Source: Sandaracinaceae bacterium
Lineage (GTDB): Bacteria > Myxococcota_A > Polyangia > Polyangiales > Sandaracinaceae
Length of the DNA stretch: 62,956 bases
Assembly (NCBI GenBank): GCA_040218145.1
Contig: JAVJQK010000106.1
Span: 1 to 62,956 of the forward strand
Reading direction: 5' to 3'
Shown here: piece after piece, positions 1,177 through 56,792 of the stretch
Numbering within the stretch: position 1 is the first letter of the stretch
How the letters are laid out: every line of letters starts with the position of its first letter
Translations under genes and position numbers: made by a program
Notes under the pieces: generated by a model
What the model was told of the DNA's origin: nothing
The model's database searches: none
What the model saw: only the letters and a program-made list of their open reading frames with translations

Positions 1177-1580
1177 ACGACCATCCGTCGAGCTTCCGCC
1201 AGCTGCTCCTCCGACCAGGCCCGCGCTTCGTCCATGGAGCGGCACACGCGGATCGGCACCGGGTGCCGGACGACGAGCATCACGGCGCTCATCACGAAGC
1301 GCAGCGCCGCGTTGCGGAACACCAGCGCCGTCCCGAGGCAGCGCTTCCCGAGCGCCTCGCCGTGCTCCTCGAGCCAGGCAGTGGCGCGCCCCCGCATGTA
1401 GGACGTCGCGCGCCCCGCCATCGCGTTGTCGAAGATGACGACGTAGGACTCACCGCGACCGAGGTGCTCGGTGGCACGCGCGATGAAACGGTCGACCTGC
1501 GCCTCGCTCGGGATCCCCACCGTGCGATGGACCACGATCGGCCAGGCGCTGTCGTCGGTCTCGAGTACGTCGCGCGGCAC
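1173..1580 (-). CDS. STAS/SpoIIAA-like small alpha-beta protein
   Basis: Read from a GTG (start uncertain; the frame stays open upstream to 1775) this gives about 135 residues. It has an 'IVVHRTVGIPSEAQVDRFIARATEHL' beta-alpha start, a central 'YVVIFDNAMAGRA' strand, and 'LGTALVFRNAALRFVMSAVMLV'. The pattern of alternating strands and helices resembles SpoIIAA/STAS-like proteins that recur in myxobacterial genomes. No catalytic residues are evident. The gene is convergent with the PRC-barrel gene (shared CTAG) and divergent from the terpene cyclase about 80 bases upstream. The family assignment is tentative. Confidence 0.5.
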   Translation of the reverse strand: MPRDVLETDDSAWPIVVHRTVGIPSEAQVDRFIARATEHLGRGESYVVIFDNAMAGRATSYMRGRATAWLEEHGEALGKRCLGTALVFRNAALRFVMSAVMLVVRHPVPIRVCRSMDEARAWSEEQLAEARRMVV

Positions 1581-1656
1581 CCTGCCCTCCCCGTTCGATC
1601 CATACGGGGCGCCGCCGCGCTTTACAAGCGGCCCCTCGATCGCCCACAAAGCGCTG

Positions 1657-3537
1657 ATGGGGGAACGGGAAGCGACCGTAGACGACGCCATCTCGCGCGC
1701 GTCACGCGTGCTCTGGGATTCGCAGCGCGAAGACGGCTCGTGGGACGACCGCAGCGACGTCGGCCCCTCGAGCACCGCGAACGTGCTCGTCGCGCTCGCT
1801 CACGCCAACCTGCTCGACGACTCCAACCGCGCCGCCGGCGCGCGTTGGCTCCTCGCCCGGCAGCGCCCGGACGGTTCGTTCGCGCCTTACCCCTTCGCCC
1901 CTCACGGCGCCCTGTCCGTCACCGCACAGTGCGCCGCGGCGCTCTCGATAGGGGGCGAGCGCACCGCCGCCGACCGCGCCATGCGTTGGGTCGACGCGCA
2001 CGGCGGAGTCGACGCGCTCCTCGACGAGATGCGACGCGGGGACGTGGGCGCGGTCTTCGTCGCCCTCGCCGGCCTCCTGCCGCCCGAGCGGCTGCCGTGC
2101 CCGCCGCTCATCTGGTGCCTCAGCGACACGGTGGTCGACGCCATGGCCGAGCGCTTCCACTTCGGGATCGTCATCGGCGCGCTTCAGCTGTCGCTCATCG
2201 CCAAGCGCCTCCGCGACGAGCCGCTCTCCTGGCTCGAACGACGCGCCGCGCGCCGCGCGATCGATCTGATGACGCTCTATCAGAACGCAGACGGCAGCTG
2301 GAACTCGAACACGGTGCAGACCGCGATCGCCGTGCCGGCCCTCCTCGCGGCGGGGCTCTCGCCGGACGATCCACGCGTCACGCGCGCCGAGCGCTGGCTC
2401 GAGTCTCGCCGCGTCGAGGACGCGGACGGAGTCTGGTTCGACGTGTTCTCGAGCGACGTGTGGTCCACCGCGTTCGGCGCCCGCGCGCTCGTGCTCGCGG
2501 GCACGCCCGCCAACGACCCTCGTGTGGTCCGGGCCGTCGAGTGGCTCCTCGATCGACAGCTCCAGACGCCCCAGCCGCTGCCCAACAACCGCCGCCCCGG
2601 AGCGCTGCGCACGGGCGGCTGGCCGTTCCAGACCGGCAACGAGACGATGGCCGACTGCGACGACGCCGGGATCGTGCTGAGCGCGCTCGGTGTGTGCGCC
2701 GACGCCGGGCTCCCCGCCCCGCTCCGCCCCCGCGTCCACCAGGCCGTCAGGCACGCACGCCACTGGCTGCGCGACATGCAGAACCCCGACGGGGGATGGG
2801 CCGCGTTCGTCTGGAACCTGCCGGGTCACCGTCCTCCGGGCACGCTCTTCGACCCGCCCCCCGACCTGCCGCCCGACGATCCCGTCGCGGCGATACGAGC
2901 CTTCCTTCATCCACCCGCGGAGCTCGGCGATCCCAGCACCGAGGATCTGACCGCGCGCGTGCTCCACGGCCTCGCCTCGTTCGGCGCCGGCGCCGACGCG
3001 CCCGAGGTGGCGGCGGGCCTCCGATTCCTGCAGGAGACGCAGACCGCGCCCGGATGCTGGTGGGGGCGCTGGGTGTGCAACTACCTGCCGTCGACGGCCT
3101 ACGTGCTCAGCGCGCTGGCCCGCGTCGGCGTCGATCCCAGCCAGGCCTGGGTCGCGCGCGCCATCGACTGGACGTGCGGCCGTCAGAACGAGGACGGCGG
3201 CTTCGGCGAGGGCACCGAGAGCTACCTCGACCTCGACGCGGCCGGGGTGGGTCCGAGCACTCCCGCGTGCACCGGCCTCGTCCTGTCGGCCCTCGTCGAC
3301 GTCGGTCTCCACGACACGCCCACCGCGCGACGCGCCGTCGACTACTTGCTCGCGCGCCAGGAGGCAGACGGCACCTGGCCCAACGACTCCTACCTCGCGA
3401 CGAACATCCCGCCCTCGGGCTTCTACGCCTACGCAGGGGCGGTGCGCCAGGTCCCGCTCGAGGCCCTCGCGCGCTTTCGCCGCCAGCTCAGTCCTTCTTC
3501 GGAGGCAGGATCCCGCGCGGAATCGGCGGCGGTCTGA
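1657..3537 (+). CDS. Squalene-hopene-cyclase-family terpene cyclase (class II)
   Basis: A 626-residue protein (ATG at 1657; the upstream in-frame sequence is antisense to the neighbour). It shows the repeated QW motifs of the squalene/oxidosqualene cyclase toroid: 'QREDGSWDD', 'QRPDGSF', 'QNADGSW', 'QNPDGGW', 'QNEDGGF' and 'QEADGTW'. The key catalytic DxDD box is present as 'ADCDDAG', preceded by 'TGGWPFQ' as in hopene cyclases. '[14 protein letters not shown]' matches the conserved SPVWDTA region loosely. Class II cyclases protonate a terminal alkene of a polyprene such as squalene. The sequence is clearly diverged from canonical hopene cyclases, so the substrate is open: squalene, a shorter polyprene or an onoceroid precursor. 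It stands alone, about 37 kb from the sterol operon. Its last 50 bases overlap the convergent kinase gene. Confidence 0.85.
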
Positions 3538-43925: not shown

Positions 43926-45665
43926 TCAGTGCGCGACGGGGCAGCCGCTGGGGAGCGAGGCGTCGTCCTGCGGCAGCGCCTCCTGGGACAGTGCCTCTTC
44001 TTCGAGCTGGATCGTGCGCTGAGGGCAGTAGTCCGCCGCCGCGCGCACCGCGTCGTTGTGCTTCGGGTCGGGTCGGTCCGTGTGCACGGCGACCTTGCCG
44101 GTCTCGTCATCGAGGTAGAAGACCTCGGGCGCCTCGTTCACGCAGACCGCGTGGCCCTGGCAGACGTCGAGGTCGAGCGCGATGTGGAGCTGGACGCGCT
44201 CGCGCTTCGGCGCCGGCGCGACCGCCTCTTCCTTCACCTCTTCGCGCGCCTCGTCGCCTACGGAGGCGGGCTCGCCCGTCGAGACGGCGGGCGTCACGCT
44301 CAGCTCGGCGCGCTTGCGGTAGCGCAGGCGGCAGGGCTCCGACGGTCCGATCACGAGGCCGTGGAAGTCCGGCTTCACCTTCGGGTCCACCAGCTCGAAC
44401 TCGTAGCGGCGCAGCAGGGTGCCGAGGATCGCCTTGATCTGGAGCAGCGCGAACGCGTTGCCGAGACACTTGTGGCGGCCGCCGCCGAAGGCGATGAAGG
44501 CCCAGTCCTTCTTGCCCTCGCTCCGCGGCTCGGCGAAGCGGTCCGGGTCGAATGTGTAGGGGTGCGTGAAGACCGCGCGGTCCCGCTGCGAGACGGTCGG
44601 GGAGACGAGCACCCAGGTGCCCTTGGGCAGGTGGTGCCCCTTGTAGACCCAGTCCTTCTGGACCACGCGGATGAGCAGGAAGAGCGGCGGGTAGAGCCGG
44701 AGCGTCTCCTTGACGGCGTGCTCGGTGACCGGGATGTTCCGCAGCGACGCGTAGTCGGTCTGGCCGTCGGCCCCGTAGACCTCGTCGAGCTCCGCGACCA
44801 CGCGGCGCATGTAGGCGGGGTGGCGACAGAGCTCGATCAGCGCCCACGCGGTGGTGACCGAGCTGGTGTGGTGCCCGGCGAACATCGCGGCGAGCAGCAT
44901 GCCGGTGATCTCGTCGTGCGTCAGCGCGGCGCCGTCCTCGTAGCGCGCCTCCATCAGGGTCTGCAGGAAGTCCTCGCCCGTGCGCCCGGTGCGCTTGCGC
45001 TCCTCGATGATCTCGCCGATGAGCTTCACGAGCCGGACGCGCGCCTGATCGCGCTTCTTGAAGCTCGGGATGGGCAGGTTCGCGTCGATGTAGGCGAGCG
45101 GCGTCACGCCACGCTCGAGGTCGTGGTAGATGCGCGCGAACTCGTCCGTCATGCGCTCGCGGAACTCCTCGCCGATGAGGCAGCGCGAGGAGGTGAAGTT
45201 GGTCAGCACGCGGCAGTAGTCGACGACGTCGACCTCGCCCTCGTCGCCCCAGTCGGCCACGCTCCGCTCCACCTCGTCGAGGATGGTCTCCCCGTAGGTG
45301 CGCATGCGCCGATCCTTGAGCGCGGGGAGCAGCATCTTGAACTGCTCCGCCATCTTCTCGGGCGTGGCGTCGTAGACCATCCCCTCGCCGAAGACGGGGG
45401 TCATGATCTTGTAGGCCTCGCGCGGGTCGAGCACCGCGTCCTTCGCGCGGAAGACGGCCTCGTGCGCCTCGGGTCCGAAGAGCGCCACCATGCGGCGGCC
45501 GGCCACGCGCACGGCGGCGATCTCGCCGAGCTCGTGGTTCGCCCGCTCGAGCATGCCGATCGTGTCGCGCACGAACTCCACCGTGTGCCCCACCAGCGGG
45601 AGGCCGCGGGACAGCTCGGGGGCCAGCTTCAATCCATCCGGGACTTCGGGTCGACGCAGGAACAT
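43926..45665 (-). CDS. cyp51: CYP51 sterol 14alpha-demethylase fused to a [3Fe-4S] ferredoxin
   Basis: A 579-residue fusion. Residues 1-455 are a cytochrome P450 with CYP51-specific signatures: 'IMTPVFGEGMVYDA' (B-C region), I-helix 'FAGHHTSSVTTAW' (263-274), ETLR at 320-323, and heme loop 'FGGGRHKCLG' with Cys400. A linker (about 455-488) leads to a ferredoxin with 'CQGHAVC' (C502, C508), the [3Fe-4S] CxxHxxC pattern, plus 'YCPQ' (C547). The enzyme should remove the 14alpha-methyl of lanosterol- or cycloartenol-type sterols, supplied with electrons by its own ferredoxin. A similar natural fusion is known from Methylococcus. It ends 'CPVAH'. Confidence 0.93.
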   Translation of the reverse strand: MFLRRPEVPDGLKLAPELSRGLPLVGHTVEFVRDTIGMLERANHELGEIAAVRVAGRRMVALFGPEAHEAVFRAKDAVLDPREAYKIMTPVFGEGMVYDATPEKMAEQFKMLLPALKDRRMRTYGETILDEVERSVADWGDEGEVDVVDYCRVLTNFTSSRCLIGEEFRERMTDEFARIYHDLERGVTPLAYIDANLPIPSFKKRDQARVRLVKLIGEIIEERKRTGRTGEDFLQTLMEARYEDGAALTHDEITGMLLAAMFAGHHTSSVTTAWALIELCRHPAYMRRVVAELDEVYGADGQTDYASLRNIPVTEHAVKETLRLYPPLFLLIRVVQKDWVYKGHHLPKGTWVLVSPTVSQRDRAVFTHPYTFDPDRFAEPRSEGKKDWAFIAFGGGRHKCLGNAFALLQIKAILGTLLRRYEFELVDPKVKPDFHGLVIGPSEPCRLRYRKRAELSVTPAVSTGEPASVGDEAREEVKEEAVAPAPKRERVQLHIALDLDVCQGHAVCVNEAPEVFYLDDETGKVAVHTDRPDPKHNDAVRAAADYCPQRTIQLEEEALSQEALPQDDASLPSGCPVAH

Positions 45666-45684
45666 CAGGGTCTCTTTCAGCGCT

Positions 45685-46383
45685 TCAGACCGAGGTCCGG
45701 AAGACGATGTCGGGGAGCGGCGTCACGGACGCGAAGTTGTGTCCGTGCTTGTTCAGGTGATGGCGATGGTGCTTCAGCGTGAGGAAGTTCATCACGCGGA
45801 AGACCGGGTGCGGGAACGTCATGCCGGAGTGGATGACGATGTGGAGGGTCGAGTAGAGGAAGAAGACCGCCACGAACGCCGTCCAGTGGATCGGGCCCAG
45901 CGCCCAGGTCACGGCCATCAGGAGCAGCAGGCCGGCGAGCATCTCGACCGGCGAGAGGTAGAGGCTCTCGAGCGCGCTGGGCACGCGGACGCGGTGGTGG
46001 ATCTCGTGCACCAGCGGCATCAGCTTCGGGTGATGCATCGTCCGGTGCATGAAGTAGTAGGCGAAGTCGTAGACGAAGAGCACGCCGAAGAACTGGAGCG
46101 CGATGAGCCACCACGGCGTGTCCGTCGCCTCACTGATCGTGAACGGCGCGAGGCCGTAGATCAGGACCACGGTCGAGCTGCTCGAGAGCAGCCCGATCAC
46201 GCCCACCGTCCAGCGGTAGTTGGACTGGCTCACCCGCATCTCCATCGGCTTGCGGATGTGGAAACGCGCGAAGCGCGGCGAGCGGTACGCCCAGGAGAGG
46301 AAGATGAGGAGCACCGCGTCGACGAAGAGCGTGATGCCCACCGCGACGTGAAAGTGCAGGTTGTCCATCATGGGGATCTGCAT
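45685..46383 (-). CDS. Sterol desaturase / C-4 methyl oxidase family di-iron membrane enzyme
   Basis: A 232-residue protein from ATG; a GTG 9 bases upstream is an alternative. It has four to five hydrophobic segments and the tripartite His-box set of the fatty-acid-hydroxylase superfamily: H113-x3-HH (MHRTMHH), H126-x2-HH (VHEIHH) and the C-terminal 'LKHHRHHLNKHGHN' cluster. In sterol pathways this fold is used by ERG25-type C-4 methyl oxidases and ERG3-type C-5 desaturases. Because the operon also has a 3beta-HSD-like SDR domain, C-4 demethylation is a reasonable inference, but C-5 desaturation is not excluded. It lies 20 bases from the upstream fusion gene and 19 bases before CYP51. Confidence 0.88.
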   Translation of the reverse strand: MQIPMMDNLHFHVAVGITLFVDAVLLIFLSWAYRSPRFARFHIRKPMEMRVSQSNYRWTVGVIGLLSSSSTVVLIYGLAPFTISEATDTPWWLIALQFFGVLFVYDFAYYFMHRTMHHPKLMPLVHEIHHRVRVPSALESLYLSPVEMLAGLLLLMAVTWALGPIHWTAFVAVFFLYSTLHIVIHSGMTFPHPVFRVMNFLTLKHHRHHLNKHGHNFASVTPLPDIVFRTSV

Positions 46384-46403
46384 CGTGTTCACCCGACCCC
46401 TGC

Positions 46404-49400
46404 CTACCGGATGCTCTGGGCGGAGCGCGCCGGCTCGAACAGCCGCGCGTAGCGTGTGCGGAGCGCCGCGTCGTCCTCGGCGAGCGTCATGCACTCGGCG
46501 ATCAAGGCCTCGACCTCGCCGCGCGTGATCTTGACCGGCAGCTCCGGCTCGAACATCGCGTCGTTGCCCCGGCCGAGCGCGAGCGTGCGGCCCGCCATCC
46601 AGAGCGGCAAGAGACAGAAGAGCCGGATCTGGCGGTGCTCGGACGGGATGAGCAGCGAGTACTCGAGCGCCGCGTCGAGCCGCTCCTTCGCGAGGTCGAA
46701 GACGGGGGAGACCGCCGCGTGCGCGCGGTCGCGCACCTTCGGGTCGGCGAGCATCGCCACCGAGAAGCCCTGCCGCGAGCACTCCGTGCGCGGGATGAAC
46801 GAGACCCCGCGGGCGAGGTCGTCGGTCACGTCCTTGAGGATGTTCGTCAGCTGCAGGCCCGTCGCGAAGCCCTCGGCGTGGTCGCGCAGGGCGATGGCGA
46901 TCGCGCCCTCGGGGTCCTCGCCGATCGAGTCGACGAAGAGGTCCGTCAGCAGGTGCCCGACGGTGCCCGCGACGTAGTAGCAGTAGCGCTCGAGGTCGGG
47001 GATGGTGTGGAGCGCCGCGACGCCGTCCGCCTCGGGCTTGCGGTGCGTGTAGAGGCTCATGCCCCGCGCCATCTCGCAGACCCAGCGCGCGCACGCCTTC
47101 TTGGTGGCCTCGTCCTGGGCCTCGTAGACGCGCATCACGCGGGGCAGCTCGCGCGCGAGGCGGAGCTCGGCGTCGTCGCCCTCGATCTGCTCGAACGCGG
47201 CCGAGAACGGCGCCGGATCCGCGCCCTCCTCGAGCACCGCGCAGAGCCGCACGAAGAGCTCGTCCTTCACCTCGAAGGGCACCGCGATGTGGTCCTCGAC
47301 CGTGTCGGCGATGCGGCAGAGGAGGTAGCCGAGGGAGACCGCCACCTCGAGCTTCGGGGGCAGCATCTCGATCGGCCGCGCGAAGGTGCGCGAGACCTCA
47401 CCGAGGGCGCTCCGGCAGAACTTCCAGTCGGCCTTCAGCTCCGGACCGATCGGCGACTTGTCGCTGCCCTTCTTGCGGCGCCGCGCCCGCTTCTGGGGCC
47501 GCTCGGCGCGACGCACCTCGCACGCGGCGAGGGCCTCGACGACCTCGCGGGCCACGCGCCAGTCGGTCGGCTCGAGGGAGGCGAGCGCGCGGGCCGTGGA
47601 CACGATGGCCTCGTTCGACGACACGCCGGCGGCGAGGAGCGCCCGCACCGCGCGGGCCGCCTCCACCGGGTCGCCGCTCGGGTCGAGCGCGGCCGAGAGC
47701 CAGCGGACGGCGCGACGCGTGGCCGGGTCCCCCGGGTGCACGCCCGCCGCGATCAGCGCCTCGAGCGCCCAGGCGGTGCGCGAGAGGTCGGCGCCGAAAT
47801 CGCCGTCGTCGCCCTGCAGGCTCACGACCCAGTCCGCGGCGCGGTCGAGCGCGCGCTGCAGGTTCGCGTCGGTCGCGCCCCTGCGCATCACGGCGTCGAG
47901 CGCGCGGCACGCGAGCGAGGTCAGCTCGAGCTCCCCGGCCGCGCCGGGCGAGGAGGCGACGCCGTGCGTGCGCGCGAACCCGCCGCTCTCGGTCTGGCAG
48001 TCGAGCAGGGCGCGGACGCCCTCGTCGAGCTGGGGGATGGGCTGCTCGTCCCACGGCGCGCCGTCGAGCAACACGAGCAAGAGCTCCGCGAGGTGACGAC
48101 AATGCGGCTCGCTGTCGAGCAGGCGCGGGAAGCCGTCGGTCGCGAGGCGACGGCGGCCGAGCGTCATGCGCGCCGCCATGCCGAGGCGCATCCGGGTCGC
48201 GGTGATCGCGCGGATGCACGAGAGCGCCGGGCCGGCGAGCGTCGCGTCGGGGACCTCGCCGAACTGCATCGCCAGCCGCTCGAGCTCACGCAGCAGGGTC
48301 GCCGAGCCTCGCTCGAGCGCGGGCGTCAGCGGTACGTCGAGCGCGGGCGACTTGCCGCCGTGCTGCTCGGGCGGCGCGACCGGCGCCGCGGTGGGGGTCA
48401 GCTTGGCGAGCTGCGGGATCGGGTGCGTCGTGCTGCTCTGCGCGCGCACGCTCGCGTCCAGCCCGCTCGGCACGACCAGCGCGGCCGGCCACTGCATCCA
48501 CTCGCCGAAGCTCATCAGGCGCGACAGCGGCCGATCGCTCTCGAGCGTGCCGCCGATGGCGCGCGCGGCGATGCGCAGGAAGGCCGAGCCGAAGCTCCGC
48601 CGGCTCTGGTCGGTCCCCGCGAGGATGTCCATCGTGCGGCGGCGCTCGCGCGGCTCCTTGCGGAGGGTCTCGAACATCGCGCGGCGGATCGCGGTGGCGC
48701 TCGGGTCGTCGCGCCGGAAGCAGTGGTAGAGCGCGTTCGACAGCAGCTCCGGCACGTAGCTCCGGCGGGCCTTCGCGTAGTCCTCGAGGCTGTCGGTGTC
48801 GGCGAGGGCCTTCGCGTCGAGCAGCCCCAGCGTCATCCCGGTCGCCGTCATCGGGTGCACGTGCCCGACCGCGTCGCCGACGAGGCGCACGTCGCCGGCC
48901 CCGAAGAGGGCGCGCGGGCGGAACTGGTTGATGGCCCAGCCGCTCGGGCCGCGCTCGAGCGCCGCGCGGAGCGCCGGGCGCATCTTCTCGGGGACCACGG
49001 GGCCGAAGCCGTCCCAGAGCGCTTCCAGCGAGCGCGCCTGCGGGCCCAGCGCGATCGGCACGTCGAGGCAGCCGCGGATGAGGCCGTCGCCGATGCGGTA
49101 GAAGAGCGCCGGCCCGGGGCCTCCCAGGATCAGGTGGCCGAAGCCCTCGAAGGGCAGCTCCACGTCCCGCAGCTCGACCGACGCCATGTACGAGAGCGGC
49201 GCCGCCTTCACCGTCTGGATCCCGAGGCTCTCGCGCACCGTCGACTTGCGTCCGTCGGCGCCGATGACGCGCCCGGCCCGGATGTCGGTGGCGCGACCGC
49301 TCTTCTTCTCCTCGATGCGCACGACGCCGTCCGCGACGCGCACCGCCCGGCCGCCGATGAGCAGCTCCACGCCATCCTCGGCCCGGAGCGCGTCCCGCAT

Positions 49401-49721
49401 CGCGTCGACGATCGCGTGGTGCTCGGCGCTGAGCGCGACGCCCTTGGTGTAGGGCATCTCGATCGGCTCGCTGCCGTCGTCGGGGAAGATCACGAAGCCG
49501 TAGCCCGCGCGGGCGCGCGCCTGCTCGAGCCGTCCCACACGGAGCGCGTCGAGCACCTCGACCCCGGTCGGGTGGAGCCACTCTCCGGCGAAGCGCTTGG
49601 CGGCGCGCGGGTCTGCCTCGACCACGAGGACGGAGGCGCCCTTGCGCGCGTGCGCGAGCGCGGCCCCACATCCGGCCGGGCCTGCGCCCACCACCACGAC
49701 GTCGTAGCTGCTGCGGTTCAT
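46404..49721 (-). CDS. Squalene epoxidase - cyclase-like toroid - squalene synthase fusion
   Basis: A 1105-residue trifunctional-looking protein. Residues 1-410: flavin monooxygenase of squalene-epoxidase type, with GAGPAG at 12-17, 'RFAGEWLHPTG' (43-53), DG motif 'VIGADGRKS' (152-160) and 'VGDAVGHVHPMTATGM' (281-296), all intact. Residues about 470-740: helical repeats resembling a terpene-cyclase alpha-barrel ('CQTESGGF', 'LQGDDGDFG'), with no DxDD or DCTAE. Residues 766-1105: squalene synthase, 'FCRSALGEVSRTF', 'RIADTVEDH' (DxxED, 804-811), 'RYCYYVAGTVG' (912-922) and 'TNILKDVTDD' (959-968). Both head-to-head FPP coupling and 2,3-epoxidation could occur on one chain. It follows the cyclase fusion gene by 34 bases. 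Confidence 0.9.
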   Translation of the reverse strand: MNRSSYDVVVVGAGPAGCGAALAHARKGASVLVVEADPRAAKRFAGEWLHPTGVEVLDALRVGRLEQARARAGYGFVIFPDDGSEPIEMPYTKGVALSAEHHAIVDAMRDALRAEDGVELLIGGRAVRVADGVVRIEEKKSGRATDIRAGRVIGADGRKSTVRESLGIQTVKAAPLSYMASVELRDVELPFEGFGHLILGGPGPALFYRIGDGLIRGCLDVPIALGPQARSLEALWDGFGPVVPEKMRPALRAALERGPSGWAINQFRPRALFGAGDVRLVGDAVGHVHPMTATGMTLGLLDAKALADTDSLEDYAKARRSYVPELLSNALYHCFRRDDPSATAIRRAMFETLRKEPRERRRTMDILAGTDQSRRSFGSAFLRIAARAIGGTLESDRPLSRLMSFGEWMQWPAALVVPSGLDASVRAQSSTTHPIPQLAKLTPTAAPVAPPEQHGGKSPALDVPLTPALERGSATLLRELERLAMQFGEVPDATLAGPALSCIRAITATRMRLGMAARMTLGRRRLATDGFPRLLDSEPHCRHLAELLLVLLDGAPWDEQPIPQLDEGVRALLDCQTESGGFARTHGVASSPGAAGELELTSLACRALDAVMRRGATDANLQRALDRAADWVVSLQGDDGDFGADLSRTAWALEALIAAGVHPGDPATRRAVRWLSAALDPSGDPVEAARAVRALLAAGVSSNEAIVSTARALASLEPTDWRVAREVVEALAACEVRRAERPQKRARRRKKGSDKSPIGPELKADWKFCRSALGEVSRTFARPIEMLPPKLEVAVSLGYLLCRIADTVEDHIAVPFEVKDELFVRLCAVLEEGADPAPFSAAFEQIEGDDAELRLARELPRVMRVYEAQDEATKKACARWVCEMARGMSLYTHRKPEADGVAALHTIPDLERYCYYVAGTVGHLLTDLFVDSIGEDPEGAIAIALRDHAEGFATGLQLTNILKDVTDDLARGVSFIPRTECSRQGFSVAMLADPKVRDRAHAAVSPVFDLAKERLDAALEYSLLIPSEHRQIRLFCLLPLWMAGRTLALGRGNDAMFEPELPVKITRGEVEALIAECMTLAEDDAALRTRYARLFEPARSAQSIR

Positions 49722-49755
49722 GACTGCTCCTTCGGCTCCAACAACGGGAAGCGGT

Positions 49756-52700
49756 TCAAACGACGGCCGGGCGACGGTCGCGGCGACCGCCCTCGGTCCA
49801 GGCGGCGCGCGCCTTCGCGCGGCTCACGAAGAGCCCCAGCGCCCACGGGGGGAAATAGGATCGGTAGAGGCGGTACTCGAGGAGCGCGGTGTGGAAGAAG
49901 ATCCCCTCGGGGTCTTGCTTCGGCCACGTTCCGTCGGCGCGCTGCGTGCGTGCCAGCAGACGCGCCGCTCGCTCGAGCGCGGCGAAGTCGGGCTCCTCGG
50001 CCTCGAGCAGGCACGTCAGCGCCCAGGCGGTCTGCACCACCTGCGCCTCCTCGTGCTCGACGTAGCGGTGCTCGGTCACGCTCGCGAAGTGCTCGCCCCA
50101 GCCGCCGTCCGGGCGCTGGCGCTCGAGCAGCCACGCGCACGCGCGACGGATCTGCGGGTCGACGCAGGGCACGCCCGCGGCGAGCAGGCCGCGCACCCCG
50201 AAGAGCGTGCCGTAGATGAAGTTCACGCCCCACATGCCCTCGAAGGAGCCGTCGGCGTTCTGCGCCGCGCGGAGCCGCTGCACGCCGCGCTCGATCGCCG
50301 CGTCGACCTGCTCGCGCATGCGGTCGGGGTAGCGCTCGCGGAAGGCGGCGAGGCCCTGCACGCAAGAAGACGTGCACTCCACGTAGGAGCGCTCGGTCAT
50401 GCACGCGCCGAACATCTCCGACGGGTTCAGCCAGTCGATCGACAGCCGCGCGTGGCGCCGCGCCTCGTAGCTCCCGAAGCCGCCGTCCGCGTTCTGACAG
50501 CGCAGCACGAACTCCGCCGCCTGCTGCATCGCGCGCGCGCTCGGCCGGGCCACGGGGCTGTGCAGCCGCGCGAGGATCGCCTCGGCCGTGCAGTCGCTCA
50601 CCGGCCAGCCATGCCAGACGCCCGCGAAGCAGTAACCGCCGGTCGGGTCCAGGCGATCGTGCTGCGCCTCGAGGCCGGTGCCCTTCTTGATCTGCTGGCT
50701 GGCGAGGAAGGCGTCCGCCTGCGTCAGCGCGCTCGTCAGATCCACGTGCGGTGCCGCGGCGCTCAGCGCCTGGGCCGCGAAGGCCGTGTCCCAGGTCGCG
50801 CTCCGGGCGCCCGCGATGCGCGTGCCCTCCTGCTCGTCCTCCCAGATCCAGCCCTCGAACGCCTCGAGGCCCTGCGACAGATCCGGGTCGTCGGGATCGG
50901 CCGCGTGGAGCGCGAGCAGGCCGAGCATGCCGCTGACCGGGGAGATGCAGGTGTAGTGCGTCGAGCGCAGCTCGTAGCGGATCTTCTCGCGCAGGTCGCC
51001 GAGCAGCTTCTCGCGGAGCGCGGGCGACTTCGCCTTCTCGAACGCGACCAGCGCGCGGTAGCCCAGCTTCAGGAGCGGGCCCGGCGCGTCGTGCACGTCG
51101 CCGTCGCGCAGGGTCTCGCGCGCGGCCTCGAAGTCGATGTCGGCGTAGGGCGCGAGGAAGATCTCGTCGCGCACGCAGCGCACGGTCGCCGTCGCCTCGC
51201 GGGTCACGCGGCCGCCGTAGAGCGCGGCCATGCCCATGTAGATGAGGCGCGTGTGGCAGTAGTAGCGGCTCGGGTGCACGGGCAGCCAGCGCGGGGTCGC
51301 CCAGAGCTCGGGCACCACCGGGTTGACGCCCTCCCACTCGTAGAGGCCGACCAGCGCGAGCCAGAGCTTGCCCCAGCTCGGGATGCCGACCGCCCCGCCC
51401 TCGCGGCGGATGAAGGCCTTCGCCTCGCGCAGCAAGGGCGCGTCCTTGTCGAGCCCGAGCAGCCGCGCCGCGACGTAGACGAGCGTGGTGACGAAGAGGT
51501 AGGGCTCGCTCTTCTCGTGCAGGCCCCAGGCGCCGCCCGGCAGCCGCGTGTCCTCGAAGTGCTTCAGCAGGAGGCGCTTGCGCTCCTCGCCGATGGGGCG
51601 CTGCATGACGTGCGAGGCGAGCACGTACTGCGCGGCCAGCATCGGGCACCAGACGACCTCGCCCTCGAACGAGCCGTCCTCGGCCTGCTCGGCCACGAGC
51701 GCCTGCGCGCCGCGGCTCAGCGCGGTCTCGATCGACGCCGCGCGCCCGCTCCGGCTGGGCAGCCCCACTACCTCGGCCTCGCCCGTGTGGTGCATGGCGC
51801 CGACGAAGCGCGTGGTGCCGCGCGCCTCGAGCTTCTCGGCCAGCCCGTCGGGCAGCAGATCGCTCCAGCCGAGCGCGCCGCCGACCATCCAGCCGACGCG
51901 CTCGAGCATCGCCTTGCCGGTCTTGTGGGCGAAGCGCAGATCGCCGCGCGCGCCGGCCCTGGCCACCCGGGCCGCGCTCGAGAGCATCACGCGGAGGCAC
52001 GAGCCGCCGAAGCGCAGCACGCCGTCGTGCTCGCCCGCGATGTAGCTCATCGTGCGGAGCCGCTCGCCGGGATCGTCGCGCCACATCGCGTACATCGCGC
52101 GGCGGATGGCGACGCTCTCGGGCGCCTCGTCGGTCAGCACCTCGGCCAGGCCGATCGCGATGGCCTCGGGCACGCGGGTCGCGCCGCGGCGCGCGCGGGC
52201 GAAGGCGGCGGGAGAGCTCGCCTCGGCGAAGGCCACGCCGTCCGCGATGGCCAGGCTCGGCCCAGCCGCGGTGAGCGGGTGCAGGCTGCCGGCCGCGTCG
52301 CCGACGCGCGCGACGCCGCCGCGGATCATGTTGCCGCGGGGCTGGATGCGCCCGTGCGACCAGGACGGCGCCCCACGGCGGAGCGCGTCCGCGAAGGGCT
52401 CCACCAGCTCCTCGGGCAGCGCGGGCGAATAGGCCTCGAGCAGCGCCACGCCGCCCTCGCGCGGGACCCGCCAGCCGAGCGGGACGTCGAGGGCGAGCCG
52501 CACCGTCGCGGGGCCCACGCGGTGCGCCACCGCCACCCCGGAGCCGCCGACGAAGACGTGACGGAAGCCCTCGAAGGGCAGGCGCGCGCCGACGAGATCC
52601 AGGCTCGCGATGCGGTGGGTGGGCGGCCGCTCGACGGCGCCGAAGGCGTACGCGCCCTCCCCGCGGCGGACCGGCTGCACGTCGGCGCCGGCCGCGAACA

Positions 52701-53154
52701 CGAGGTGCGAGACGCGCGCGCTGCGCGGGCGGCCACGCTCCTGCCAGGTGACGGTGTCGGCGTCGACGCGGCTCGCGCGGACGGGCGTGCGCAGGGTGAT
52801 CGCCTCGTCCGCCTCGCAGTGCTGGCGGAGCGTCTCGACCAGCAGACCGTGGGGGAGCGAGAAGCCGAAGCGGCCGACGCGGTAGGGGAGCGCGACCGGC
52901 TCGGTGCCGTCCTCCGGGTAGAGCACGAAGCCCTTGCCCGTCGGGTATCCGACCGGCGGCACGAGGTCGACGCCGAGGCCCTCGAGCGCGTCCATCGCCT
53001 CGGGGTGCAGCCAGGCTCCGACGTGCTGCGCGGCCGCCTCGTTGGGGTCGGCCTCGAGCAGGAGCACGCGCGCCCCCGCCTTCGCGCACGCCAGCGCGGT
53101 GGTGCACCCGGCGATCGACGCGCCGACGATCCCGACGTCGTACCGCGGCGTCAT
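49756..53154 (-). CDS. Squalene-epoxidase-like domain fused to oxidosqualene cyclase
   Basis: An 1132-residue fusion. Residues 1-390: FAD-monooxygenase fold related to squalene epoxidase ('WLHPEAMDALEGLG', 'VGDAAGSLHPLTAAGPS' at 284-300). But the nucleotide loop reads GASIAG (11-16) instead of GxGxxG, and the DG motif is replaced by 'AAGADVQ' (154-160), so FAD activity is doubtful. Residues about 440-1132: oxidosqualene cyclase with the signature 'HGWPVSDCTAE' (catalytic Asp854), plus 'WDTAF' (788-792) and QW motifs 'QNADGGF', 'QNADGSF', 'QRPDGGW' and 'QRADGTW'. It should cyclise 2,3-oxidosqualene to lanosterol, cycloartenol or a related protosteroid. The start overlaps the previous stop by one base (TGATG). 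Confidence 0.92.
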   Translation of the reverse strand: MTPRYDVGIVGASIAGCTTALACAKAGARVLLLEADPNEAAAQHVGAWLHPEAMDALEGLGVDLVPPVGYPTGKGFVLYPEDGTEPVALPYRVGRFGFSLPHGLLVETLRQHCEADEAITLRTPVRASRVDADTVTWQERGRPRSARVSHLVFAAGADVQPVRRGEGAYAFGAVERPPTHRIASLDLVGARLPFEGFRHVFVGGSGVAVAHRVGPATVRLALDVPLGWRVPREGGVALLEAYSPALPEELVEPFADALRRGAPSWSHGRIQPRGNMIRGGVARVGDAAGSLHPLTAAGPSLAIADGVAFAEASSPAAFARARRGATRVPEAIAIGLAEVLTDEAPESVAIRRAMYAMWRDDPGERLRTMSYIAGEHDGVLRFGGSCLRVMLSSAARVARAGARGDLRFAHKTGKAMLERVGWMVGGALGWSDLLPDGLAEKLEARGTTRFVGAMHHTGEAEVVGLPSRSGRAASIETALSRGAQALVAEQAEDGSFEGEVVWCPMLAAQYVLASHVMQRPIGEERKRLLLKHFEDTRLPGGAWGLHEKSEPYLFVTTLVYVAARLLGLDKDAPLLREAKAFIRREGGAVGIPSWGKLWLALVGLYEWEGVNPVVPELWATPRWLPVHPSRYYCHTRLIYMGMAALYGGRVTREATATVRCVRDEIFLAPYADIDFEAARETLRDGDVHDAPGPLLKLGYRALVAFEKAKSPALREKLLGDLREKIRYELRSTHYTCISPVSGMLGLLALHAADPDDPDLSQGLEAFEGWIWEDEQEGTRIAGARSATWDTAFAAQALSAAAPHVDLTSALTQADAFLASQQIKKGTGLEAQHDRLDPTGGYCFAGVWHGWPVSDCTAEAILARLHSPVARPSARAMQQAAEFVLRCQNADGGFGSYEARRHARLSIDWLNPSEMFGACMTERSYVECTSSCVQGLAAFRERYPDRMREQVDAAIERGVQRLRAAQNADGSFEGMWGVNFIYGTLFGVRGLLAAGVPCVDPQIRRACAWLLERQRPDGGWGEHFASVTEHRYVEHEEAQVVQTAWALTCLLEAEEPDFAALERAARLLARTQRADGTWPKQDPEGIFFHTALLEYRLYRSYFPPWALGLFVSRAKARAAWTEGGRRDRRPAVV

Positions 53155-54275
53155 CACATGGCCGCCATCAGCTTCGCGGTGACCGACTGCACCATGGGCT
53201 TCTCGCCGATGGCGACGGCCCAGTCGAGCGCGTCCGTGCGGACCATCTTGCGGAAGACCCCGCCGCCCCAGAAGGAGAGCTGGAACGCCTTCTTGCACTC
53301 CCGCTCGTACTTCGCGCCCGCCTCGCTCTCGAGCTGGCCCTCACGCAAGATGCCGTGCACGGCCTCGGCGCCGAGCATGCCCGATCGCATGCCCTGGTAG
53401 ATGCCCTCGGCCGTGGCCGGGTGCGTCATCAGGCCGGACTCGCCGATCGCGATGCGGCCGGGCGCGGTGAGCGAGTCGATCTTGTAGCTCCACACGACCG
53501 GGTGGCCCTTCCAGCCGCCGACCTGCGTCGCGTTGGCGAGCCGCTCGCCGTAGTACTTGTCGAGGAACTCCTGGAAGAGCTTGCGCGCGTGCTTCTTCCC
53601 GTCGGGCGGGTCCTCGTAGGTGATCCCGATGTTGACCCGCGTCTCCGACTCCGGGAAGAGCCAGCCGTAGTAGGGCTCGATCATCCGGTCGAAGATCATC
53701 TCGACGTGGTGCGGCTTGAACTCCGCGTCGTCCCACCAGCCCATGATCGCCTGGATGGTGCGGCGCGGGCGCAGCTCGGGGAGGCCGACGCGGCAGTGGC
53801 TGCCGCCGGCGATCAGCGTGAAGCGCGCGCGCACCTCGCGGCCGTCGCGCGCCTTGAAGCCGACCATGCGGCCGCGCTCCTCGATCGCCTCGCTCGCGTC
53901 GAAGTTCGGCAGGAAGCGCACGCCGCCGCTCGTCGCCTTCTTCCACAGGATGTGGTCGAGGGTGCGGCGGTGGCAGACGACCGCCTCGGCGACGTCGCCC
54001 GCGGACTGCCAGCTGTCGCGGCCGCCGGGGGTGACGATGCGGATCCCGCGGATCCAGTAGGCGTGCGGCTCGACCTCTTCCCAGATGCCGAGCTCCTTGA
54101 GCACCTTGATCCCCTTGGGGGAGATGCCGCTGCCGCAGGTCTTGTCGCGGGGGAAGTCGTGGCGGTCGACGAGCACGACGTCGTCGATCCCCAGGGTGGC
54201 GAGGTGGGCCGCGGCGGCGGTGCCCGCAGGCCCCGCTCCGATGATCGCGACCTCGGCGTCGTATGTCTCGGGCAT
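53154..54275 (-). CDS. Geranylgeranyl-reductase-family FAD oxidoreductase (candidate sterol reductase)
   Basis: A 373-residue flavoprotein from ATG. 'AEVAIIGAGPAGTAAAAHLA' (GxGxxG at 13-18), then the substrate-loop motif 'DFPRDKTCGSGISPKGIKVL', 'AGGSHCRVG' and 'IAIGESGLMTHPATAEGIYQGM'. This fits the geranylgeranyl reductase family, which saturates prenyl double bonds. In this operon a sterol side-chain (C-24) or nuclear double-bond reduction is a good guess, but not proven. It lacks a membrane helix. It starts 3 bases after the HMG-CoA reductase fusion and its stop overlaps the cyclase fusion start, so translation is probably coupled. Confidence 0.88.
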   Translation of the reverse strand: MPETYDAEVAIIGAGPAGTAAAAHLATLGIDDVVLVDRHDFPRDKTCGSGISPKGIKVLKELGIWEEVEPHAYWIRGIRIVTPGGRDSWQSAGDVAEAVVCHRRTLDHILWKKATSGGVRFLPNFDASEAIEERGRMVGFKARDGREVRARFTLIAGGSHCRVGLPELRPRRTIQAIMGWWDDAEFKPHHVEMIFDRMIEPYYGWLFPESETRVNIGITYEDPPDGKKHARKLFQEFLDKYYGERLANATQVGGWKGHPVVWSYKIDSLTAPGRIAIGESGLMTHPATAEGIYQGMRSGMLGAEAVHGILREGQLESEAGAKYERECKKAFQLSFWGGGVFRKMVRTDALDWAVAIGEKPMVQSVTAKLMAAM

Positions 54276-54278
54276 CGT

Positions 54279-56792
<2,514 letters not shown>

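Follow-up and report, generated by a model that had tools for sequence, protein, structure and literature searches.

A squalene epoxidase-oxidosqualene cyclase fusion with a sharply diverged epoxidase half in a putative sterol gene cluster of a Sandaracinaceae bacterium

Introduction

The committed part of sterol biosynthesis begins with squalene epoxidation, which needs oxygen, followed by oxidosqualene cyclisation. In Methylococcus capsulatus, whose Osc is a bacterial lanosterol synthase, squalene epoxidase (SE) and oxidosqualene cyclase (OSC) carry separate locus tags (PMC4919349). Both activities on one chain, with the SMO part N-terminal, are found in the 'fused SMO/OSC homologs' that were trimmed according to the methods of a 2023 paper (PMC10070321). 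The mention there is confined to trimming from an alignment, and those homologs may include the present proteins. No paper discussing the function of the fusion was found in a search of the literature that covered few subscription papers. The SE-OSC architecture is already known to specialists and has been little discussed.

The protein described here, P0001, is a variant of this architecture with a sharply diverged first half. It is encoded in a 62,956-nucleotide contig of a Sandaracinaceae bacterium (JAVJQK010000106.1), the whole of which is referred to as the window. Like the fused SMO/OSC homologs, P0001 holds both parts in one chain with the epoxidase part first, but its SE half is strongly diverged in the window lineage. 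Whereas the Methylococcus cyclase is encoded apart from its SE, the cyclase of P0001 shares its chain with an SE-type domain that precedes it.

Gene structure and predicted fold

The gene and its parts are arranged as follows.

49756..53154, minus strand: SE-OSC fusion gene P0001, 1132 aa, a single open frame; AlphaFold pTM 0.89
51859..53148, minus strand: N-terminal domain of squalene-epoxidase type (residues 3-432) with eroded FAD motifs; matches human SQLE at Z 39.6 and departs from the consensus at 23 of 76 conserved positions
51739..51858, minus strand: linker, about residues 433-472, mostly of low pLDDT (below 50 at 431-439 and 446-471)
49801..51738, minus strand: oxidosqualene cyclase domain (473-1118) carrying VSDCTAE at 852-858; matches 1w6k at Z 43.7

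The frame runs from an ATG at 53154 to a TGA at 49756 without an internal stop, exactly the span proposed in an earlier sequence-only reading of the locus, and the start codon overlaps the stop of the upstream gene (53154..54275) by one base. GC3, taken per 40 codons, stays at 0.88-1.00 across the domain junction, and just the short tail at the C-terminus is lower, at 0.75; since GC3 is steady through the junction, no frame change is visible. Both domains lie in this one frame, SE followed by OSC, and relatives keep the order. A separate OSC made from an internal start was considered and rejected: no obvious Shine-Dalgarno sequence precedes the in-frame start codons around the linker (e.g. Met454), and Met454 is absent from the majority consensus of the other fusions.

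The sequence-only reading had described a flavin-monooxygenase fold joined to a complete OSC with VSDCTAE, had taken the two reactions to be consecutive, which is correct, and had suggested a domain search and a full-chain structure prediction as checks. The Pfam search matches the N-terminus to SE (PF08491, E 2.7e-6, 27.1 bits against a cut-off of 20.1) and, over residues 5-63 only, to FAD_binding_3; further along the chain it matches SQHop_cyclase_N at 481-774 (E 2e-52) and SQHop_cyclase_C at 785-1108 (E 1e-54). With 59 homologous fusions as input, AlphaFold2 gives a full-chain model that contains both folds at a mean pLDDT of 86.6 and a pTM of 0.89, with the linker at about 431-471 poorly predicted; the SE half modelled alone reaches a pLDDT of 89.2.

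Comparison of the model with the PDB pairs residues 470-1118 with human lanosterol synthase (1w6k; Z 43.7, rmsd 2.0 over 647 residues), so that the OSC is complete as described. Residues 3-432 find their best match in human SQLE (6c6n; Z 39.6, 18% identity), ahead of PHBH-type monooxygenases, for which the best Z among those listed is 32.8. Because SQLE is the top match, above other flavin monooxygenases, the N-terminal domain can be assigned to the squalene-epoxidase type in particular, and the domain assignments of the sequence-only reading are correct.

Distribution of the fusion

In the window's order, the SE-OSC fusion occurs in 20 genomes beyond the window's own. These include a second assembly of the same species, with a near-identical copy of P0001, and one genome (G178) in which the fusion is split over two contigs. 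A wider scan covered 84,980 species genomes, and the best 80 of the 273 loci encoding a relative were taken. Single-frame SE-OSC fusions make up 79 of these 80 (one of them, L114, cut by a contig end); the remaining locus, in the cyanobacterium Amazonocrinis nigriterrae (L097:5902-9270, plus strand), encodes SE and OSC as adjacent separate frames, possibly a state of fission or one that precedes fusion. By record titles and NCBI ranks, the fusions fall into nine phyla (Myxococcota, Pseudomonadota, Cyanobacteriota, Actinomycetota, Nitrospirota, Chloroflexota, Acidobacteriota, Bacteroidota and Binatota), although single phylum labels may carry binning errors because many of the records are sponge-associated metagenome bins. 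The fusion is widespread in bacteria, and together with the 'fused SMO/OSC homologs' of PMC10070321 this overturns the earlier statement that SEs and OSCs are separate proteins in known examples.

The same survey bears on the possibility that two genes were joined by an artefact of assembly or a frameshift. Adjacent separate frames do exist, in Amazonocrinis, but the near-identical copy of P0001 comes from a separate assembly of the species, 79 of the best 80 loci are fused in a single frame, and fusions are found in genomes assembled into one or two contigs, of about 10.3 and 13.2 Mb. With the second-assembly copy and the conserved single-frame fusions, the artefact is refuted and its probability is negligible. 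Other signs against a true fusion that the sequence-only reading had named were looked for as well: no stop lies between the domains, no obvious internal ribosome site is present, and the joined frame recurs in distant relatives. On an OSC tree from a short search, five changes between fused and unfused labels are needed, at least two of them forced by well-supported branches; with these changes, the tree is compatible with a single origin followed by fissions but does not demonstrate it.

Genomic neighbourhood

P0001 belongs to a run of six co-directional minus-strand genes (43926-56792) separated by gaps of at most 34 bases or joined by one-base overlaps. The run resembles a sterol operon. 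Its other members, and one further cyclase-like gene of the window, are listed here.

54279..56792, minus strand: HMG-CoA reductase fused to an SdmB-like SDR; TIGR00532 351.5 bits (over cut-off), NF052578 SdmB 294.3 bits (cut-off 600)
53154..54275, minus strand: geranylgeranyl-reductase-family protein, probable sterol C-24 reductase (Bsr-like); TIGR02032 158.2 bits, cut-off 158.8
46404..49721, minus strand: P0002, SE plus degenerate cyclase-like remnant plus squalene synthase, 1105 aa; FAD_binding_3 2.2e-20, SE 3.5e-19, SQS_PSY 3.4e-41
45685..46383, minus strand: fatty-acid-hydroxylase-superfamily membrane oxidase (sterol desaturase/oxidase type); PF04116 5.2e-20, start (~46383) estimated
43926..45665, minus strand: cytochrome P450-ferredoxin fusion, probably CYP51-type; PF00067 4.4e-74, PF13370 3e-11
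1471-3537, plus strand: unfused squalene-hopene-cyclase-like gene; best NCBIfam model TIGR01507, under cut-off

The P450-ferredoxin fusion resembles a CYP51-ferredoxin fusion that is reportedly present in Methylococcus. A PDB sequence search with the fatty-acid-hydroxylase-like protein (45685..46383) returned no match. For the probable C-24 reductase, a GGR homologue of the Sandaracinus amylolyticus sterol cluster was demonstrated to reduce sterols at C-24 (PMC12004948).

The gene following P0001 encodes the second SE of the run. P0002 has an intact GADGR motif together with DTVED and DVTDD, and it is probably the working epoxidase. Both P0001 and P0002 carry an N-terminal SE within a fused sterol enzyme; they differ in the partner, which is squalene synthase in P0002, and in the SE of P0002, which the SE tree places in a separate set and which keeps its flavin motifs. 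SE-squalene synthase fusions recur across several families of the window's order, and relatives also carry squalene synthase-SDR and HMGR-squalene synthase-SDR fusions (L047).

Epoxidase lineages in Polyangiaceae and Sandaracinaceae

In the SE tree, the SEs fused to squalene synthase and related stand-alone SEs form a set of their own (98/99), and the Sandaracinaceae SE-OSC proteins are one clade (100/99) within the Myxococcota fusion set (99/99). Because these sets are separate, the SEs of P0001 and P0002 are paralogues of different lineages and not products of a recent duplication. All eight Sandaracinaceae genomes searched contain at least two SE matches, one in the SE-OSC protein and one in the SE-squalene synthase protein, the latter being cut by a contig end in one genome (G176). 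The two genome groups compared here (f1 and f11) were assigned to Sandaracinaceae and Polyangiaceae through contigs in common with named records.

The fusion genomes of the Polyangiaceae differ from this arrangement. Their only PF08491 match lies inside the fusion frame in 13 of 13. Eight of them were also checked for cyclases, and in five of these eight no cyclase match lies outside the fusion. Holding the only match of both kinds makes a two-step enzyme likely in these five: provided that the organisms make sterols and have no unrelated alternative epoxidase, the fusion likely performs both steps. In relatives of this kind, channelling of the epoxide between the two domains, as suggested in the sequence-only reading, is plausible.

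A different combination is seen in genus g82. Two of its fusions have an altered cyclase motif, DATAE in one genome (L094, G171) and ECTAE in another (L098, G170); each genome has a second, unfused cyclase (L161, L162), and the SE of the fusion is its only SE match. The genus seems to be the converse of the window lineage, with the sole SE kept and the cyclase motif altered.

The cyclase half

The DCTAE motif of P0001 is intact, starting at 854, and the residues at human positions 381, 449, 453 and 455 are A, H, V and D. V453, as opposed to the I453 of cycloartenol formation, went together with lanosterol production among the tested strains (PMC4919349), and P0001 has the valine. It has this residue type in common with Methylococcus Osc, together with DCTAE and a complete two-domain cyclase fold. 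The NCBIfam model TIGR03463 scores 703 bits, under its cut-off of 851, a threshold that serves annotation and says nothing biochemical. The superfamily model TIGR01787 scores 468 bits, over its cut-off of 322.7. Sandaracinus amylolyticus produces lanosterol and zymosterol (PMC4919349) as well as cholesterol (PMC12004948), and in a genome that is probably of this species (G180) the fusion is the only OSC match in the P0001 search. The valine, the sterols of S. amylolyticus and the fusion as the only OSC match in that genome together suggest that the OSC half probably makes lanosterol.

Residue loss and constraint in the epoxidase half

Conservation was assessed against a reference of 76 fusions from outside Sandaracinaceae, in which 76 positions of the SE half and 182 of the OSC half are conserved to 95% or more. 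P0001 breaks 23 of the 76 SE positions and nine of the 182 OSC positions. When each of the 76 reference fusions is left out in turn, the number of broken SE positions has a median of 1 and a maximum of 7, and the Sandaracinaceae relatives of P0001 break 11-24. The asymmetry also appears in the ratio of SE to OSC distance to Polyangiaceae, which is 1.84 for P0001, has a mean of 1.07 within Polyangiaceae and does not exceed 1.55 in 63 fusions from other records.

The changes include flavin-site residues. In the first FAD motif, GxGxxG, the second glycine has become S13 (GASIAG), a type of motif that other flavin monooxygenases tolerate. The FAD-pocket arginine (human R161) is Q43, the conserved glutamate (human E165) is A47 and the aspartate of the DG motif (human D284) is A155, which turns DG into AG. 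Measured against human SQLE, P0001 thus shares the fold over 3-432 and the GD motif at 18% identity but has no equivalent of the DG aspartate, R161 or E165. As a set, the flavin motifs GxGxxG, DG and GD fail in the SE half, with GD alone kept. The FAD_binding_3 match shrinks to residues 5-63 in P0001, as against 2-301 in a Polyangium fusion and 6-307 in P0002; the whole-domain match persists in other Sandaracinaceae SE-OSC proteins. The DG aspartate is also missing from Polyangium fusions, where the fusion holds the sole SE, and from some stand-alone SEs, so its loss alone is no proof of inactivity.

The domain is nevertheless maintained. Between P0001 and its nearest relative outside its species, the SE half is 63% identical and the OSC half 75%. 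In a Sandaracinus pair, the SE half is the better conserved of the two, and its dN/dS is about 0.02-0.05. The 63% identity and this low dN/dS indicate that the SE half is under selection. Values of dN/dS for P0001 against G174 and G178 were set aside, since only NG86 was used and a GC3 near 1 saturates dS. Simple pseudogene decay of the SE half was considered and is weakened by the lasting constraint and the very low dN/dS of the Sandaracinus pair. On these comparisons the SE half of P0001 is read as a folded domain under constraint, with flavin chemistry that has probably been reduced or lost in the window lineage.

Two alternatives keep a catalytic role for this domain. P0001 might carry out both epoxidation and cyclisation at full activity, and the neighbouring SE-squalene synthase would then be an additional epoxidase. 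The Polyangiaceae, whose fusion genomes have no SE match outside the fusion and, in five cases, no other cyclase match either, indicate that the architecture can probably work, and the SE half of P0001 retains the SQLE fold, the GD motif and selection. Against this, 23 near-invariant SE positions are changed, the equivalents of R161 and E165 among them, the D284 equivalent is gone, the SE half has evolved at an accelerated rate and a better-conserved SE is encoded next door in P0002; full activity is judged unlikely, though it deserves some weight. The SE half might instead have been repurposed for another oxidation, such as a second epoxidation of oxidosqualene or the oxidation of a sterol product. 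Constraint that outlasts the canonical residues, and the strong conservation in the Sandaracinus pair, would fit a new or structural function, but no new conserved motif was found, and the lost residues are at flavin-binding positions, which no flavin monooxygenase would be expected to do without. Repurposing is accordingly rated as improbable.

Proposed function

The preferred reading, given a probability of about 0.6, is that the OSC half forms lanosterol using epoxide supplied by P0002, while the SE half is constrained and weakly or non-catalytic. It draws on the observed architecture, gene order, distribution and asymmetric residue loss and on the predicted fold. P0001 would be a membrane-associated SE-OSC fusion derived from a widespread bacterial protein of bifunctional type. 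The ancestral protein would have made (3S)-2,3-oxidosqualene with its N-terminal flavin domain and converted it to lanosterol with its C-terminal cyclase. Sandaracinaceae encode in addition a second SE, fused to squalene synthase, which in the window is the next gene. The SE half of P0001 has shed many flavin-site residues in the window lineage, yet has stayed in frame and folded. The neighbouring P0002 would deliver the epoxide from which the cyclase half produces lanosterol, and the SE half may help the cyclase to stay folded, to remain at the membrane or to dock to its partner.

More tentatively, P0001 may be an enzyme in transition, whose SE domain became a non-catalytic docking domain once the squalene-synthase-fused epoxidase was present; synthase, epoxidase and cyclase would in that case operate as two paired multidomain proteins. 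With SE residues lost and a better-conserved SE in the adjacent gene, P0001 is, on sequence grounds, a weaker candidate for channelling than the Polyangium fusions.

Significance

Surveys that look for separate SE and OSC genes, or that trim the fused N-terminus, will miscount epoxidases. Where the fused pair is the only copy of both activities found, as in some myxobacteria, it offers a direct test bed for channelling. The window lineage provides a natural comparison, in which one half of the same architecture has apparently been relieved of catalysis.
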